Origin: Legionella qingyii
GTDB lineage: Bacteria > Pseudomonadota > Gammaproteobacteria > Legionellales > Legionellaceae
Direction: 5' to 3'
Assembly (NCBI RefSeq): GCF_003184185.1
Contig: NZ_QHJG01000029.1
Coordinates: 1-55,784, forward strand
DNA: 55,784 nt
The stretch's first letter is position 1. Each line of letters starts with the position of its first letter. Of the stretch, positions 9,316-23,664 are shown piece after piece. Under the pieces are notes generated by a model, which was not told the origin of the DNA, did not search any database, and saw nothing but the letters and a program-made list of their open reading frames with translations. Both the position numbers and the translations under genes were made by a program.

Positions 9316-9807
9316 ATGAACAATAAGCTTCTCATGCTATTTATTGCCTCAGTCCTGCTTGTGGGTTGTAAACATGGTGGAGTACTCTTTAAAAAACCAC
9401 CGGTAAACAATCCTAGCGATGATGCTACAATTAAATTAGCAGAAGCAGCTGTATCTGTAAGCGATTCCATGCATGAAATGGCACGCGTCGAAAAAGTAAT
9501 TCTACCACCCCATAAAGACAACACGCTTACGATACCTAATGCATATAACTTACAAGCTAGAGCCAGTGTGGATTGGTCAGGACCTATTGAGGAGTTAACT
9601 GCCCGTATTGCCAAATCAGCCCATTTCAGGCTACGTGTTTTAGGAAAAGCCCCTTCAATTCCAGTTTTAATCAGTCTTAATATTAAAGATCAAAGTTTAG
9701 CTGAAATCCTGCGTGATATAGATTATCAAGCAGGTAGAAAAGCTGATATTCATGTTTATCCTAACAGTCAGGTTGTTGAATTACGCTATGCCAAAATTTA
9801 TTCCTAG
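9316..9807 (+). CDS. dotD: Dot/Icm type IVB secretion lipoprotein DotD
   Basis: Outer-membrane lipoprotein of the Dot/Icm core complex; with DotC it localises DotH to the outer membrane. The 163-residue product has a lipoprotein signal ending LLVGC, so the mature protein starts at a lipidated cysteine near residue 18. The C-terminal half (SVDWSGPIEELTARIAKSA onward) fits the secretin N0/DotD fold. It is the first gene of dotD-dotC-dotB, and its 3' end overlaps dotC by 20 bases. Confidence 0.95.
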   Translation: MNNKLLMLFIASVLLVGCKHGGVLFKKPPVNNPSDDATIKLAEAAVSVSDSMHEMARVEKVILPPHKDNTLTIPNAYNLQARASVDWSGPIEELTARIAKSAHFRLRVLGKAPSIPVLISLNIKDQSLAEILRDIDYQAGRKADIHVYPNSQVVELRYAKIYS

Positions 9808-10717
9808 CTTAATAGTTGTTGTATTATCGGCTTTGTTGCTTGCATGCCACTCTTCAAAAAATATGGGTGATACTGGCTCATTAGAAGGGCTACAAGCTAT
9901 GGCCAATGTGAATGTAAAGCAACGGAATAAAAAGCAAAACGGTAAAATTCGGCAGATGGCTTTGAAAGAAACTGCTTTAAGTCTCGGCGCGCAAGCAGGT
10001 TTAGCCTGGCGAGCAAAAGTCATTGATGAACATTTGATTAAGCAATCACGCAGGCTTGATGCTATTTATGATTTTAATTCCCTGATTCTGGAACACAATA
10101 TCTTACCTCCAGTGCTCTTGGAAGGTAGAAACACCCTCAATCTTGCTGATGCGCAAACCATCCGCATTTCTGACCGTACTTATAGAGTTGCAAAACAGGC
10201 ACATTTTGTTACCACCCCACCAACTTGGCGGCAATATTTATGGCTCGATTATGTTAAACCAGAATATCCTCACTATACGCTGTTGCCTAAAACTAAAGTA
10301 GAGAAAAAAATATGGTGTATCTATACAGCCAAAGGTTGGAAAAATGGTATTGATCAAGCCAATACCATTCTTGAAGAAAATATCGCTCGCATTAAAGAAG
10401 ATTTTGGCGGAATGATTCTTTATAGAAAATTATTAGCAATGAATATGGTAACTCCTCCTTATGTCTCTCATACAGACTTAGGAATCACAGGTGATGCCTC
10501 AGAAATTCATATTGATGATCGCGTATTAAGAATTACTGCATTACCAGCTCTGAATATAAACAGTGAACAATGGCGCGCTGCGGTTTCTAAGGATGAAAAT
10601 GCTTTAGAACAATTCAAAAACATGGAAAAATTGGCAAATCGTTCTAAAATTATAATAACGGATAAATCCTGGCAGCCGACAATCGCTCCAATTAACGATA
10701 ACAATAGAATTCACTGA
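9788..10717 (+). CDS. dotC: Dot/Icm type IVB secretion lipoprotein DotC
   Basis: Second outer-membrane lipoprotein of the Dot/Icm core. From the ATG at 9788 the protein begins MPKFIPSLIVVVLSALLLAC, a clean lipoprotein signal with lipobox LLAC; the longer frame from 9752 adds twelve residues that spoil it. The product is about 309 residues, similar to known DotC. The segment RDEALSLGAQAGLAWR-like (here ETALSLGAQAGLAWR) is family-typical. The start lies inside dotD and the dotB start follows nine bases after the stop, so the three genes are probably translated together. Confidence 0.95.
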   Translation: MPKFIPSLIVVVLSALLLACHSSKNMGDTGSLEGLQAMANVNVKQRNKKQNGKIRQMALKETALSLGAQAGLAWRAKVIDEHLIKQSRRLDAIYDFNSLILEHNILPPVLLEGRNTLNLADAQTIRISDRTYRVAKQAHFVTTPPTWRQYLWLDYVKPEYPHYTLLPKTKVEKKIWCIYTAKGWKNGIDQANTILEENIARIKEDFGGMILYRKLLAMNMVTPPYVSHTDLGITGDASEIHIDDRVLRITALPALNINSEQWRAAVSKDENALEQFKNMEKLANRSKIIITDKSWQPTIAPINDNNRIH

Positions 10718-10725
10718 TACGAAGT

Positions 10726-11856
10726 ATGAATAACAATTCTTATTTGATGCCCGATGAACCCACGCGTTTTACTCCACTGTTCATGGACAAAATGTTGGAG
10801 CACACAGAGCGTCTGAGTGCTTCCGATATTACAATCCAAACGGGTGAGCCTATTTATGCTGAAGTTTATGGAAAGCTATTACGAATTACCAATCGTCGTT
10901 TATCTAATACCGAACTGGGTGATTTAATAAATGCGATATATGGCCCCAACGCCACAACACAACTTCTTTCAGGTAAAGATATCGATACCCACTATGAATT
11001 TCGCCCTAATCGGGGTGTTCGATACCGATATCGGGTCAATGGAACAGCATGCCTTGTAGAGGGTCACGATGCAATCCAAATCACGTTAAGAACTATCCCG
11101 ACCACACCTCCCAGGCTTGAAACCATGAATCTGCCAGAGAATATCCTTCAAGCCATCGCGCCTCAGGAAGGTATTGTATTTATTACAGGAGCAACCGGCT
11201 CTGGTAAATCAACATTATTGGCATCTATTATTCGTGATTTGATAGAAACAGAAGATTCAAACCGTAAAGTACTGACCTATGAATCTCCAATTGAATTTGT
11301 CTATGATGAAATTGAAACCATATCTGCCGTAGTTAGCCAATCAGAAATTCCTCGGCATTTGCCGAGCTTTGCAGATGGAGTAAGAAACGCTTTGCGACGT
11401 AAACCGCGCTTAATCATGGTAGGTGAGTGTCGTGATGCGGAAACAATTAGTGCCGCATTAGAAGCAGCACTTACTGGACACCCCGTATATACAACCTTAC
11501 ATACTTCAGGCGTTGCCGAAACCATGCGTCGGCTTGTAACCTCATTTTCCGGTGAAGAGCGATTAGGAAGAACCATTGATATCCTAGAAACAATTAGATT
11601 GTGTATTTGGCAAAAACTTGTCCCTACCGTAGACGAAAAAAGGGTGGCATTAAGAGAATATCTTGTATTTGACGAAGAAGTCCGGGATATTTTACTTGAA
11701 AGTGACCCTAACGAGGTAACCTCTGCTACGCGTAAACTGGTACGGCAAAAGGGACAACTTATGACCTGGGATGCGAAAGCAAAATTCGAGCAAGGCATTA
11801 TCAGTGAACGAGTTTACAAATTAATTATTGCCGGTGCAAAGGAATATCAACAATAA
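10726..11856 (+). CDS. dotB: Dot/Icm secretion ATPase DotB
   Basis: Cytoplasmic hexameric ATPase of the PilT/VirB11 type that docks to the Dot/Icm channel and is needed for effector export. The 376-residue protein has Walker A GATGSGKST (residues 155-163), an Asp box near LTYESPIEF, Walker B LIMVGECRDAET and a His box TGHPVYTTLHT. It shares these features with PilT but the N-terminal MPDEPTRFTPLFMDKMLEH is DotB-specific. It ends the dotDCB operon. Confidence 0.97.
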   Translation: MNNNSYLMPDEPTRFTPLFMDKMLEHTERLSASDITIQTGEPIYAEVYGKLLRITNRRLSNTELGDLINAIYGPNATTQLLSGKDIDTHYEFRPNRGVRYRYRVNGTACLVEGHDAIQITLRTIPTTPPRLETMNLPENILQAIAPQEGIVFITGATGSGKSTLLASIIRDLIETEDSNRKVLTYESPIEFVYDEIETISAVVSQSEIPRHLPSFADGVRNALRRKPRLIMVGECRDAETISAALEAALTGHPVYTTLHTSGVAETMRRLVTSFSGEERLGRTIDILETIRLCIWQKLVPTVDEKRVALREYLVFDEEVRDILLESDPNEVTSATRKLVRQKGQLMTWDAKAKFEQGIISERVYKLIIAGAKEYQQ

Positions 11857-17854: not shown

Positions 17855-19303
17855 ATGAAATTAGTGTCGAAACTTGTATTGCTTAATCTGCTTTGTTTTA
17901 CGGTGTTTCCTGCCATAGCAGATGAGGCAACCGATTCATATAATCAGCAACAAACAGCTACTAATATGCAAAAATTAGTAGAATACTTCAAAAATCTTGG
18001 TGATTATTTAGGTTACAATGTAATGCAAGAACCTACGCAAGGCAATCAAAACTACTCAATAAGCTATTCGCTCATCAATTTAACAACCTCACAACTCGCT
18101 CAAGCCTATCAGTTTTACACTTTATTAGGTTCTATTCCAGTAAATACGTTTACTGCAAGTGGCAATGCAGGGGGAGGTGGAGGAACAAATACAGGAAATG
18201 CAGGCAACCCCTATGCTCAGTTTCTGCCTAGTGAAAGCACTGCCACATCAACTCTTAACCCTAGTGCATCAATCCTTAACCCCCTGGCAAATAATGCTTT
18301 TCCCAGTTACAGTTCAACTTCATCTTCCGGACAAGTTAGTGTAACTGAGTTAATAGACCAAAAAACCTATCAACAAGATCCAGTAAGTCAAGCGGTATTA
18401 AATATTTTGGGAACTCCTGACTATACGTACTGTATGGATTATAAGAATGCACAAATTTTTGATGGAAAGTGCTCCTTCCTCTATGAAACCCTGGTACCCA
18501 CGAACGTGGTAGGAGAAATTCCCGATGCGACTACTTTTTTCAGCCCCAATTACCTCCAACAATTCTTAAACCATCTTAATAGTAATGCTTTAACTGGACC
18601 ATTAATGTATTCAAGTCAAGACCTTGGAAGTACTCAGGCCACCAGTAATGTAGCAAAAAATGGCTTAACTGCACAAAATCAAGAACAACTTGCAGCGAAT
18701 TTCATTCGTTACGTTACAGGAGGCGTAATTCCCATTGCATTACCCAAATGGAAAGATTATGACACGTTATACGGTAGGACCCTTCTTAAATCGACTACCG
18801 GCACCCCCTCAACCCCACAAATGCAAGCAACGCAAACACTTGCTAAATATCTTGCAAGCCTACGCACCTATGCAGCGCAAAACTCTGTAGGAATAAGCAA
18901 CCTTTATTACATCATGTCAAAAAGAATGCCTCAAACTCCGCCTAATCAGCAGAGCGGGAGCCCAACGAGCCAAGCACTGAATGAATTTAATATGGCAACA
19001 TGGAGATTATATAATACTACCAGTGCAGGCAGTACTGATACAGCTGGAACTGGTACTGGTGGGGCTGGTGGGACCACTGGTACGGGTGGTACAGAAACGA
19101 AAAATACCGCATGGATCAATAGCCTGAATAACGCACCACCGGCTGTAGTAGAAAAAGAAATTGCCATACTGCTTGCCGAGATCAATTATCAGCTTTATTT
19201 AGATCGTCAAATCCATGAGCGCTTATTAATGACTAACAGCATCTTGTTATTACAAAGTGTTCGTACAGGTGCCCCCTCAACTGATTTTACTGCAGCACAA
19301 TAA
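17855..19303 (+). CDS. icmX: Dot/Icm protein IcmX
   Basis: Periplasmic Dot/Icm protein, partly secreted by L. pneumophila, needed for pore formation. The 482-residue product has a Sec signal (LVLLNLLCFTVFPAIA before DEATDS). Two low-complexity Gly/Thr/Asn/Ser-rich stretches, near residues 105-120 and 390-412 (for example GTGTGGAGGTTGTGG), interrupt the conserved parts and may explain its being slightly longer than the L. pneumophila protein. The conserved C-terminal helix includes KEIAILLAEINYQLYLDRQ. It starts directly after icmW. Confidence 0.95.
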   Translation: MKLVSKLVLLNLLCFTVFPAIADEATDSYNQQQTATNMQKLVEYFKNLGDYLGYNVMQEPTQGNQNYSISYSLINLTTSQLAQAYQFYTLLGSIPVNTFTASGNAGGGGGTNTGNAGNPYAQFLPSESTATSTLNPSASILNPLANNAFPSYSSTSSSGQVSVTELIDQKTYQQDPVSQAVLNILGTPDYTYCMDYKNAQIFDGKCSFLYETLVPTNVVGEIPDATTFFSPNYLQQFLNHLNSNALTGPLMYSSQDLGSTQATSNVAKNGLTAQNQEQLAANFIRYVTGGVIPIALPKWKDYDTLYGRTLLKSTTGTPSTPQMQATQTLAKYLASLRTYAAQNSVGISNLYYIMSKRMPQTPPNQQSGSPTSQALNEFNMATWRLYNTTSAGSTDTAGTGTGGAGGTTGTGGTETKNTAWINSLNNAPPAVVEKEIAILLAEINYQLYLDRQIHERLLMTNSILLLQSVRTGAPSTDFTAAQ

Positions 19304-19345: not shown

Positions 19346-19678
19346 ACCACAAACTCTTGGTAGCTTAATCACTACATCATAAAGTTCACCATAATTTTCA
19401 GACTAGATTTTTATAAATAAGCTACCATCAAATCATTTTTAAAAAACATGGTGCAAAAAATGATGCATATGATATGATTTCACTCACATTGAAACCTCTA
19501 GTTTTTAAGAAAACTTAAGGCTTGATATTTTCTAAACTCAAGTAAAAACGTCTTGTTTTTCAATGATTAAGACCGACACATGGAACACATGTACATAATT
19601 AAGTTCAGAAAATCACGATGTATCTCGCCTATATGAAATATCAAATCTTAACAAATTAACCTTAATCAACGAGCCAAT
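19346..19678. other. AT-rich gap before the P-type ATPase
   Basis: About 330 bases with no supportable gene. It must hold the promoter of the ATPase gene, but I find no convincing -35/-10 pair, operator or repeat. Confidence 0.4.
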
Positions 19679-22243
19679 ATGTCCAAATTTAAAACCTATA
19701 CTTTTTATGTCGACGGAATGACCTGTATCAGCTGTAGTAAAACTCTTGAGAACTACTTAAAAGAAAAACTCGAGGGCAGATTCAAAGGGTTCCATGTAGA
19801 TGTCACCACACCTGATCCTAAAAGGGCAATAATTACTCTAGAGGAAGATCAAGAACATGATGACCCATATGAAGTATGGACCGAAGTAAAAGGCTATATC
19901 GATGAACTATTTAGTTGTAGAGAATTTGGATATCGACCAATAAATGAAGAACCCAGCGAAGAGGCTCAAGTAAAAAATCAGCAACCCAATAATTTGGAGA
20001 AAGCCAAAAGCTTTTTTACATCGCATTGGTTTCTTGGTGGGGTTGGGTGTGTATCAGGGCTTGTCGTGCTCATCATTTGCCTCGCAACGAGTGGGCTTCC
20101 ATTAGCAGTGATGGGTTCACTTGCTGTTTTTAGTACTTTATTAACTTTAATCTTAGGCGCAAATTCCTATTACGACGCCTGGATCAAACTAACCAAGGCT
20201 AAAACGTTAACTATGGATAGCTTATTTGCGCTCAGTACCGCCTCCATATTAGTCGTATCCTTTGCCTCGCTATTTGTCCCCTGGCTTCCCATGATGTTTG
20301 AAGCCGGTTTGCTTATTTATGGTTTTAGACATATAGGAATTGCCATAGAAGAAACCATTAAAGAAAAAATTGGTACAGCAAAATTCCAGGACAGAGCCCC
20401 AAAATCAGTGAGAAAAAAAGCTAATCAAGATTTTGATGAAATTAAAATAGATAAGATCAATGTAAATGATGTAATTATTGTATATCCGGGTGAAATTATT
20501 CCTCTTGATGGCATTTGCGAGGATGAAAGCCTTATTTACAAGACAATTGACACAGGAGCAATCCTACCACAATATTTTCCTCCGCATACTGAAGTACTCG
20601 CCGGCATGCGCCTAGCCGACAATGAAAAACCGTTAGCAATACGTGTTACGAAAATACAAAGCGAATCGTACTTGGCTCGACTCGACAAAGCAATAGAAAT
20701 ATCCGCATTGGAAAAAGCACCTATTGAAATAAAAACAGGGCAATTACTCACGTATTTTATCCCAGCCGTAATTGCACTGGCAGCGGCTTCTGGCGTAATT
20801 ATTGGAGTTTTTTTTCCTGCAGCCGTGGCAATTCAATGTGCTGTGTCTGTTTTAGTAAGTGCATGTCCTTGTACTTTAGGGTTGATTACGCCTCTAGCAG
20901 TAAAAACTGGGATGCATAAAGCAGCAGAGCATGGGGTACAATTTAAAAGTGCCAAAATACTACAGCAAGCAGAACAAATAGACACCGTAATTTTTGATTT
21001 GAATGGTACCCTGACTACTGGAGTCCCTAGTGTAAGAGAACTGTATTTGTTTGAAGAAAGTAACCTTTCAGAAATAGAATTTCTTTCCTATTGTGCTGCC
21101 CTTGAAAAGGAATCAAGTCATCCTATAGGGAAGGCCATTTATTCTTTTGCAAATCAAGTCGAGATTAAAAACGTTGAAGCAAATTTGTTGGATCATACTC
21201 ATCATTCTGGAATTTCTGGGATGATAAAAAATAAAGACTATGTCATTGGCAGCATGACTGTAATGAAGGAAAAAGGAATTGAAATCCCACTCAATTTCAA
21301 GCACCCCAACTTACAAGCAGGTGATCAAATAGTCTATGTAGCACGTAATAAAGTGGCAATAGGATTTCTGGTCATAACAGATCCCCTGCGGGATGATGCG
21401 TACTGCACTATTAGAGCATTAAAAGCAATAGGAAAAAAAATCTGTTTATGCACTGGAGCAGATGAAGAAACGGCTCATCGTTATGCTCAAGCACTGGGCA
21501 TTGAAACAGTTTACGCCAACTGTGTTGCAAGCTCTCTTAAAAGAAACGAAAATCATCTATCAAAAACATCCCATATTAAAGCCCTAAGACGCAAAGGTCA
21601 TAAGGTAGCCATGATAGGAGATGCTGGGAATGATACTCCTGCAATTACAGCCAGCGACTTAGGTATCGCGGTGGTTTCCGATGGTAGTGATATCTTAACC
21701 CAACAAGCAGCCGGTATTGTAATTCATAATGGAGCATTATTATCTATCGCCTCGGCTTTTGCTGTCTCCAAACAAACCGTGTCCAATATAAATCAAAATC
21801 TGGTGATGAGCCTGATTTACAATCTTGGATCAATCCTGGTTTCAGGAGGATTATTGGTTGCTATAGGATTAACTCTTAATCCTGTCGTCGGTGTTGCATT
21901 AATGATCTTCCAAGCGTGCATGATTTTAATGAATGTTTATCGCTTTAAACAACAACCACTGGAACATTTACAACAAGAGAAAAAACAATATCAGGAAGCA
22001 AGTTCTCCGAGAGAGTCCTCTCATGCAAAAATGAACAAATACAAATCTGAAAATTCAAAAGACTGTCTTTGTGACCAAGAGCCAACCCATGTTAAACCTG
22101 CAAATGCGCCAGCCCCCTCCTTTTGGAGTTATTGCATGCCTAATGGGTCTTCAACTAAAGAAGAGGAGGAAGAGCTTCTTTTACTTAGGAATATTAAGAA
22201 TGAATCTATTATGAATAGTGCAAACTGTTCCTTTAAGTACTAA
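19679..22243 (+). CDS. P1B-type (heavy-metal) ATPase with altered catalytic motifs
   Basis: An 854-residue P-type ATPase of the metal-transport class. An N-terminal HMA domain carries MTCISC (Cys16, Cys19); membrane segments follow near 118-165 and 185-215, and the transmembrane metal motif CPC is at 396-398. The HP motif (HP at 481-482) is intact. Several invariant motifs are changed: the actuator TGE reads TGA (292-294), DKTGT reads DLNGT (440-444), the TGD region reads CTGADEE, and GDGxND reads GDAGND (647-652). The aspartate acceptor D440 remains. A long hydrophilic tail (about 760-854) adds extra cysteines and an acidic cluster. It is downstream of icmX, separated by a hairpin. The usual role would be Cu+ or similar export; loss of the TGE glutamate suggests an altered or regulatory role. 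Confidence 0.85.
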   Translation: MSKFKTYTFYVDGMTCISCSKTLENYLKEKLEGRFKGFHVDVTTPDPKRAIITLEEDQEHDDPYEVWTEVKGYIDELFSCREFGYRPINEEPSEEAQVKNQQPNNLEKAKSFFTSHWFLGGVGCVSGLVVLIICLATSGLPLAVMGSLAVFSTLLTLILGANSYYDAWIKLTKAKTLTMDSLFALSTASILVVSFASLFVPWLPMMFEAGLLIYGFRHIGIAIEETIKEKIGTAKFQDRAPKSVRKKANQDFDEIKIDKINVNDVIIVYPGEIIPLDGICEDESLIYKTIDTGAILPQYFPPHTEVLAGMRLADNEKPLAIRVTKIQSESYLARLDKAIEISALEKAPIEIKTGQLLTYFIPAVIALAAASGVIIGVFFPAAVAIQCAVSVLVSACPCTLGLITPLAVKTGMHKAAEHGVQFKSAKILQQAEQIDTVIFDLNGTLTTGVPSVRELYLFEESNLSEIEFLSYCAALEKESSHPIGKAIYSFANQVEIKNVEANLLDHTHHSGISGMIKNKDYVIGSMTVMKEKGIEIPLNFKHPNLQAGDQIVYVARNKVAIGFLVITDPLRDDAYCTIRALKAIGKKICLCTGADEETAHRYAQALGIETVYANCVASSLKRNENHLSKTSHIKALRRKGHKVAMIGDAGNDTPAITASDLGIAVVSDGSDILTQQAAGIVIHNGALLSIASAFAVSKQTVSNINQNLVMSLIYNLGSILVSGGLLVAIGLTLNPVVGVALMIFQACMILMNVYRFKQQPLEHLQQEKKQYQEASSPRESSHAKMNKYKSENSKDCLCDQEPTHVKPANAPAPSFWSYCMPNGSSTKEEEEELLLLRNIKNESIMNSANCSFKY

Positions 22244-22442: not shown

Positions 22443-23477
22443 TTAGTCTGTTGATTTATATCCATCTAAAATAATTGATAGCTTCTCCATCACCTCATCG
22501 ACAGGAATCAGTTGCATGGGTTCGTCACCATGCACATGCAGCCCCCAAACATCTTCGATGCGTTTACTACCTAAAATTTTTTCTGCCGCTTCAGGATAAT
22601 GATTCACAACCAAATGTTGAAAAAGATAAGGCCCCGAAATAAGGGGGTTAGTCACCGCATGTAATGCAATAACTGGAGTATTTACAGCAGTAGCCATATG
22701 TGAAGGCCCTGTATCAGGACAAAGAACAACTGTTGCTTTACTGATAAGCGCCAATAATTGCTTGGGTTTCGTTTTGCCAACGAGATTAATTGCAGGAATA
22801 ACTTGGGTAATTTGGTCCGCCAAGTGCTTATCAAAATCAATTGGCCCACCTGTTATGATCACCTGTACATTCCATTTTTCCCTAGCCCTTCGCAACACGT
22901 CAATATAACGAGCCACAGGCCAACTTCGTTCCGGTTTACTTGCAGCGGGATTAACCACCAAAATCGGACCTTGCTTTGGTAAATGTTGTTCTGCCCATTC
23001 ATAATCTGCAGAAGTAATAGGTAAATCCCAGCGAATAACCCGCTCCTTTATTCCTAAAGATTGAGCAAACTTCAAGAACCCATCTAAGGTGTGCTCTAAA
23101 CCTGGTGTTATTCGTTCATTTACAAATAAGCCATGAGCATCATTCGCTCGATGCTCATCATAGCCAATTTTTCGTTTCGCTTTGATAAAAGGATAGAGTA
23201 AATTCGTCCTTAGACTCGCTTGCGGGGCTAATAATACATCAAAGGTACGTCCTTTCATTTGCTTTTTAAAGCGCCAATAATCTGCAATATTGTTCGGTTT
23301 ATCAATTAAAATAAATTCTACTCCATCCATCCCCTCTACCAAATCAAAAGCAGGTTTGGAAATAATCCAAGTCAACTTTGCTTGCGGTAGATTCGCTTGC
23401 AAGGTTCTAATGAGTGGCACCGCCATTAGAACATCGCCTAGTGCAGATAATCGTACAATACAAATGGATTTAATCAT
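22443..23477 (-). CDS. Glycosyltransferase family 9 (heptosyltransferase-like)
   Basis: A GT-B-fold sugar transferase of the heptosyltransferase family, likely acting on lipopolysaccharide at the cytoplasmic face of the inner membrane. The N-terminus IVRLSALGDVLMAVPLIRTL and the C-terminal nucleotide-sugar site (CPDTGPSHMATA) are clear. The ATG at 23477 gives 344 residues; the longer frame to 23501 adds eight residues overlapping the upstream zinc-finger gene. As chosen, the start overlaps that gene by eight bases. Which sugar and acceptor are used cannot be told from sequence. Confidence 0.87.
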   Translation of the reverse strand: MIKSICIVRLSALGDVLMAVPLIRTLQANLPQAKLTWIISKPAFDLVEGMDGVEFILIDKPNNIADYWRFKKQMKGRTFDVLLAPQASLRTNLLYPFIKAKRKIGYDEHRANDAHGLFVNERITPGLEHTLDGFLKFAQSLGIKERVIRWDLPITSADYEWAEQHLPKQGPILVVNPAASKPERSWPVARYIDVLRRAREKWNVQVIITGGPIDFDKHLADQITQVIPAINLVGKTKPKQLLALISKATVVLCPDTGPSHMATAVNTPVIALHAVTNPLISGPYLFQHLVVNHYPEAAEKILGSKRIEDVWGLHVHGDEPMQLIPVDEVMEKLSIILDGYKSTD

Positions 23478-23664
23478 TCTGTAAAACAAACCGGGAACCA
23501 CAATAAGGGCAAACCTCTACGCCAGTTTTTTCAATTGGCAAATAAACCTTTGGATGAGCGTTCCATAATATCATATCTTTTGTCGGACAGCTCAGAGGTA
23601 ATTCATTACGATGCACTACGTAATTTTTTTTCGTACTTGCTGGTTCTTTTTTAGCTTTTAACAT
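23470..23664 (-). CDS. Zinc-finger domain protein (zf-CHCC type)
   Basis: A 64-residue protein with the CHCC zinc-finger pattern: C30 (LSCPTKD), a histidine in NAHPKVYL, and the pair CPYCG near residues 52-55. The domain is also found in the NDUFS6 subunit of respiratory complex I, and in bacteria it is commonly a small stand-alone gene. Its stop overlaps the start of the glycosyltransferase gene, and it lies 16 bases downstream of miaA, suggesting a miaA-zf-GT9 unit. The function is not established. Confidence 0.75.
   Translation of the reverse strand: MLKAKKEPASTKKNYVVHRNELPLSCPTKDMILWNAHPKVYLPIEKTGVEVCPYCGSRFVLQND

Follow-up and report, generated by a model that had tools for sequence, protein, structure and literature searches.

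What can a P-type ATPase still do once the residues of its pump cycle have been exchanged? The question is posed by a gene downstream of icmX in Legionella qingyii, which we studied in a 55,784-nucleotide stretch of the genome (the window; assembly GCF_003184185.1, contig NZ_QHJG01000029.1, positions 1 to 55,784). The phosphoenzyme cycle is the defining property of P-type ATPases, and the family to which this gene belongs offers a natural experiment on the residues that the fold can spare. The open reading frame is intact, running from an ATG start to a TAA end with no internal stops (Table 1). Its product has the P1B fold with A, P and N domains, according to Pfam (E1-E2_ATPase, 93.6 bits; HAD hydrolase, PF00702, 88.7 bits) and a predicted model; the Pfam search returned no HMA domain at an E value of 0.001. 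Among the NCBIfam models, the protein passes the general P-type TIGR01494 (153.2 against a cut-off of 62.3) and stays below the curated cut-offs of TIGR01525 (346.1 against 346.25) and TIGR01511 (302.5 against 397). The original prediction, made from the letters alone, had described a P1B ATPase with broken catalytic motifs, and its reading of TGA, DLNGT, GDAGND, CPC, HP and the CxxC pair C16/C19 was correct throughout. GDAGND, however, is varied rather than broken, because its catalytic D, N and D are retained. Two further changes emerged: motif II reads TGA where TGD is expected, and transmembrane helix 6 (TM6) has MxxQA in place of MxxSS. Exchanged cycle residues beside an intact metal site suggest a metal transporter that has departed from the textbook pump cycle.

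The changes are shared by the relatives of the protein. Conservation was counted at 34 alignment positions over the best 120 of 636 matches, the window protein included. The phosphorylated aspartate is retained in all 120, and the lysine of DKTGT is replaced in every one (Leu in 117, Ile in 2, Cys in 1), as is the following threonine (Asn in 106, His in 10, Arg in 3, Ser in 1). The position of the TGE glutamate, a motif described as assisting phosphoenzyme hydrolysis in the part of the source consulted (PMC4179477), holds Ala in 63 sequences, Ser in 43, other residues in 11 and Glu in 3; the TGD aspartate is kept in 1. CPC, the TM5 Tyr-Asn pair, the TM6 Met and the TM6 Gln are each present in 120 of 120, and with Gln at the Ser720 position throughout, the TM6 signature of the P1B-1 group (MxxSS) is absent. 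HAD motifs I to IV are all in place: the Thr/Ser of motif II, the Lys of motif III, and the first Asp and the Asn of motif IV are invariant. The N-domain Glu (120) and His (118) are likewise kept, and a family-specific His occupies the first Gly of GxG in 112. The pump-cycle residues have thus been exchanged jointly and for good, and what is retained is the route of the metal, the core of the HAD domain and the majority of the nucleotide contacts.

Because the same changes recur across the family under purifying selection, the gene is not decaying, as had been supposed from its intact frame. We call the type of the window gene A. The ratio of non-synonymous to synonymous substitution rates (dN/dS) is 0.174 between the window gene and a related locus (L001), and across 27 A pairs its median is 0.143 (pairs limited to 75–98.5% identity and a proportion of synonymous differences below 0.65). 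The canonical set yields a single usable pair, whose dN/dS of 0.068 lies below the A values. Orthologues were named at the outset as the place to look for canonical motifs, which would mark this copy as a recent lesion; DKTGT occurs in 0 of the 120 listed sequences and in 0 of the 48 family loci read. Family-wide sharing and purifying selection rule out a recent lesion or pseudogene.

Besides A, the family includes a paralogue, B, and a set of deep relatives. Profile searches placed it in 92 of 143 genomes of the order (E <= 1e-118) and A or B in 41 of 45 genomes of the genus (E <= 1e-100); counted by score, A occurs in 33 of the 45 and B in 40, including one A gene that lies in two frames in a metagenome-assembled genome (L024 = L113, G015). 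Across the class, 13 of 369 genomes gave a match, nine of them DKTGT carriers and four family members. A plasmid collection held no match, and viral contigs, queried with P0021, a protein 53% identical to that of the window, held no relative. On a tree built without the alternative ATPase C described below (108 unique proteins out of 141, with the 3rfu piece added), A, B and the deep relatives form a clade with support of 0.80, which becomes 0.952 when C is added; the inner branches differ between the trees, and the groups are partly set by label, ‘canonical’ meaning possession of DKTGT. Five loci (L024, L036, L049, L050 and L113) gave no usable frame.

The orthologue question can also be approached from the opposite side, since 9 of the 45 genus genomes carry a distant, DKTGT-bearing P1B-type ATPase near icmX. 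This ATPase, C, is present in 12 genus genomes and in nine of these lies within ~2.1 kb of icmX; around C in G039 and G033, icmX was absent from the 14–15 kb fetched. The protein was read in 11 of the 12 (L180, 3365-6268, and L181-L200), the twelfth copy, in G032, lying on a 3.9 kb contig. Like A, C occupies the icmX slot (in the nine genomes just named) and has CPC and an N-terminal Cys motif; unlike A, it has DKTGT (11 of 11) and a length of 928–985 residues, and the two are ~25% identical over ~410 residues. A pattern search recognised TGE in 9 of the 11 copies, all but those of G030 and G033, and GDxxNDxP in 10, all but that of G033; the C proteins of these two genomes may therefore be less than fully canonical. 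Every genus genome has one of the two ATPases and none has both (33 A, 12 C, both 0, neither 0; Fisher test, 3.5e-11, n = 45). On a tree of IcmV, IcmW and IcmX (24 loci with A, 8 with C and 4 as outgroup), the C genomes fall in three separate places among the A genomes. One tree makes C the sister of the whole family (support 0.987), a placement that is uncertain because the branch is very long.

Order-wide, C occurs in 45 of 143 genomes (cut-off 1e-60), and no genome among the 143 was seen with C plus an A or deep type. Thirteen genomes have both C and a family match, and in all 13 the match is B-type (8 within the genus, 5 outside). Subtracting these from 92 leaves 79 A-or-deep genomes, on which the order-wide Fisher value of 2.6e-22 rests and which is an upper figure because few matches outside the genus were read; the cut-offs (1e-118 for the family, 1e-60 for C) may also miss distant relatives. 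The loci read outside the genus number nine, in eight genomes (L207-L215), six of them deep-type and three B-type, the latter in genomes that also have another family match. The either/or occurrence argues for a shared metal-handling job, and its simplest reading is that A and C serve one metal-related function through different mechanisms.

The paralogue B gives an indication of direction. In the 39 B loci read (among L091, 1731-5067, and L092-L131), the same cycle changes are seen: Ser at the TGE glutamate in 39, Leu for the DKTGT lysine in 38 and Asn for its threonine in 39. The N-terminal CxxC is found in 0 of 39, and the N terminus is His-rich, with a median of 22 His in the richest 60 residues. 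TM6 carries Glu in all 39 where A has Gln, and near the entry Thr stands in 34 where A has Met. A Fur-family gene closest to Zur is divergent from B in 36 of the 39 loci, and all 36 have a Zur-type palindrome upstream of B with at most two mismatches. Its consensus derives from these very B loci and was afterwards compared with the general Zur consensus, and also with a Zur site of Pseudomonas aeruginosa, GCGTTATAGTATATCAT, given in the consulted part of its source (PMC8456098). In 40 genomes with B, 38 have the box at no more than one mismatch and the remaining two at 2. A whole-genome scan of the 45 genomes returned 48 forward matches against 25 for a reversed control; two scans, combined by reading, give 52 distinct places, 38 at B and 14 elsewhere, and no site other than B has the box repeatedly throughout the genus. 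In three loci (L101, L123 and L129), 1.5 to 2.0 kb separate B from the Zur-like gene. Three genomes are ambiguous: in G016, G023 and G026 zur lies at another site, the 3.4 kb fetched there contains no box, and the box at B overlaps the opening codons of the longest B frame.

Zur-repressed genes are expected to be made under zinc shortage; a Zur-type box at B therefore argues against efflux, pointing to a putative role of B in zinc shortage. None of the 45 genus genomes yielded ZnuA (PF01297) in a search that was positive in 11 of 14 controls; all 45 have ZIP (PF02535), which rules out B as the sole zinc importer. Zur control of the window gene itself is ruled out, the best box match in its upstream 400 bases having 5 mismatches. 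As a separate observation, two extra Zur-type boxes lie ~3.1 kb apart in three genomes, G010 (L153, L154), G028 and G036.

Our preferred reading, held tentatively, is that the window protein takes up or hands over metal by a non-canonical, nucleotide-gated cycle. A copper-type P1B ATPase would have given rise to this Legionellales family, with the TGE glutamate, the DKTGT lysine and threonine and the TGD aspartate replaced, probably once, near the family root, and kept replaced since. The metal path is preserved in CxxC, CPC, Tyr, Asn, Met and the equivalents of E189 and E205; so are the Asp, Thr/Ser, Lys and Asp of the HAD phosphate core and the Glu, His and Gly that contact the nucleotide. 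The CxxC domain and the CPC site would take up a soft metal, in all likelihood Cu(I), and the gate would be set by nucleotide binding, or at most by slow phosphorylation of the aspartate, with no power stroke; the net outcome would be uptake or hand-over instead of efflux. A non-pumping state, as first proposed, is plausible for the protein on its motif states. The either/or pattern and the paralogue at a Zur-type box make both function and direction testable. A broader version, which we consider unlikely, is that a P-type lineage gave up its phosphoenzyme cycle to yield nucleotide-gated importers: a copper-type one at the icmX slot, interchangeable with a DKTGT-keeping P1B-type ATPase, and a His-rich, Zur-controlled zinc one that might share the work of ZnuABC.

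Several points weigh against uptake or hand-over by such a cycle. The fold is an AlphaFold2 prediction, in which the TGA loop (residues 290-295) has confidence values (pLDDT) below 50. Three of the 120 listed sequences have Glu at the TGE position and one has the TGD aspartate. The Fisher values ignore shared ancestry, and C, with its DKTGT, may be an ordinary pump, in which case an active-pump role would suit A as well. The argument on direction comes from B and not from the window gene: among 49 regions upstream of A or deep genes, that of the window among them, none has a Zur-type box at no more than three mismatches. Zinc uptake, moreover, has no need of B, because ZIP is present in every genus genome.

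The genomic setting bears on a suggested link to infection. icmX, icmW, icmV and dotA all lie upstream of the window gene, and a scan of genome contigs gave 50 family loci, of which 24 are near icmX, 21 beside a gene for a SPOR-domain protein and 5 beside neither (L025, L031, L040, L041 and L044); the Pfam SPOR call was made on one protein. The SPOR-type loci often also have genes that we take to be argS, folB and hemE, and the neighbour name lphB is likewise our assumption from similarity. The glycosyltransferase gene comes directly after icmX in three of the four deep relatives inspected, and the arrangement in the window therefore looks like a later relocation. With deep relatives elsewhere and an acidic C-terminal patch in few A proteins (below), a link to infection finds no support.

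Among other explanations, an ATP-driven pump with a slow or rewired phosphoenzyme cycle is somewhat unlikely. It would use other family-specific residues, namely the nearly fixed His in GxG and the Arg in DPLR, and could draw on the invariant phospho-Asp, motif II Thr/Ser, motif III Lys, motif IV Asp and N-domain Glu; alternation at one locus with a DKTGT-bearing ATPase would suit it. However, mutants of P-type ATPases indicate that the TGE glutamate, DKTGT lysine and TGD aspartate are needed for phosphorylation and dephosphorylation, and their joint loss would be expected to cripple both. The original prediction favoured a non-pumping or slow-cycling metal-sensing role; the protein would then be a pseudo-pump that senses metal and nucleotide and signals the metal load to a partner protein. 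Metal and nucleotide contacts kept while cycle residues are lost are consistent with this, as is the long C-terminal tail (median 86 residues in A versus 4.5 in the canonical set), but no single neighbour gene common to the A, deep and B contexts was found, and CPC, Tyr, Asn and Met are all retained, beyond the needs of a sensor. Alternation with C suggests a transport-like, shared metal-handling job, and we regard sensing as improbable.

It is very unlikely that the HAD domain acts as a free phosphatase or phosphotransferase with the membrane part as an anchor. All four HAD motifs are retained and DLNGT is nearer than DKTGT to the general HAD motif I, but the acid/base position is Asn instead of Asp in 106 of the 120 listed sequences, and the intramembrane metal ligands are invariant. 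Least credible of all is a Dot/Icm effector carried to the host membrane. The icmX neighbourhood and an acidic patch near the C terminus of the window copy recall such proteins, in which an acidic C-terminal signal is frequent, not universal. However, only 2 of 33 A proteins have the patch (at least 5 acidic residues in 8, within the last 30), which disposes of an effector by this route; the deep relatives are not beside icmX, and eight genus genomes with B and without A retain icmX.

Among the closest known systems are the CopA-type P1B Cu(I) ATPases (LpCopA, 3rfu; AfCopA, 7r0g), which the window protein resembles in predicted fold, CPC, TM5 Tyr-Asn, TM6 Met, the E189 and E205 equivalents, the phospho-Asp and the N-domain Glu and His. 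It differs in TGE, DKTGT, TGD and MxxSS, in the His at the first Gly of GxG, in a Gly at the D337 equivalent and in its long tail. The lack of DKTGT, TGE and MxxSS sets it apart from P1B-1 members; it derives from a P1B-1 transporter and may still work like one. Listed relatives are named heavy-metal-translocating or Cu2+-exporting ATPases by their sources, and these names may mislead. HmtA of P. aeruginosa is a P-type importer under Zur control, according to the part of the source that describes it (PMC8456098). Its likeness, taken from that description, would lie in the putative Zur control of B only; unlike HmtA, the window gene has no Zur-type box. From its locus order and published descriptions, P0021 is the probable pacS of L. 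pneumophila. In the consulted passages, pacS lies beside lphB, a neighbour of Dot/Icm components, is described as a putative transporter of copper or cations, and has an intergenic change nearby that recurred in a macrophage evolution experiment; these same passages are silent on altered catalytic motifs (PMC3364954, PMC3661481, PMC12308824). Literature searches returned no paper on lpg2691, lpg2690, icmX with a P-type ATPase in Legionella, or pseudo-ATPases among P-type ATPases.

Table 1. Coordinates of the window gene, its motifs and its neighbours
Feature	Position	Strand	Basis or remark
A-type P1B-derived ATPase-like protein, 854 aa	19679..22243	+	Similarity, position; relative of L. pneumophila pacS
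N-terminal CxxC (C16, C19)	19724..19735	+	Invariant in 43-row alignment
First predicted membrane helix (MA), residues 116-136	20024..20086	+	AlphaFold2 model
TGA replacing TGE, residues 292-294	20552..20560	+	Alignment
CPC, intramembrane metal site, residues 396-398	20864..20872	+	120/120 listed sequences
DLNGT replacing DKTGT, residues 440-444	20996..21010	+	Asp invariant
HP of nucleotide-binding domain, residues 481-482	21119..21124	+	Glu five before His also retained
Motif II TGA replacing TGD, residues 592-594	21452..21460	+	Alignment
GDAGND, residues 647-652	21617..21634	+	Catalytic D, N, D retained
TM5 Tyr-Asn metal ligands, residues 714-715	21818..21823	+	120/120 listed sequences
TM6 MxxQA, residues 742-746	21902..21916	+	Met retained; Gln = CopA Ser720, Ala = CopA Ser721
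Long C-terminal tail, ~residues 760-854	21956..22240	+	Model confidence low from residue 789
icmX, upstream neighbour	17855..19303	+	NF038225, 625 bits
Glycosyltransferase family 9 gene, downstream neighbour	22443..23501	-	Pfam

Upstream of the window gene, the stretch ATGATATGATTTCAC occupies window positions 19469-19483 and recurs upstream of A genes at varied distance; a pattern drawn from these same sequences is matched at no more than two mismatches in 11 of 24 A upstream regions. The stretch may be a promoter element, such as a -10 element, or an operator, as which it was first read. Farther upstream, beyond dotA, the genes at window positions 9752-11856 carry domains of the T4SS_TraI and type II/IV secretion ATPase kinds.
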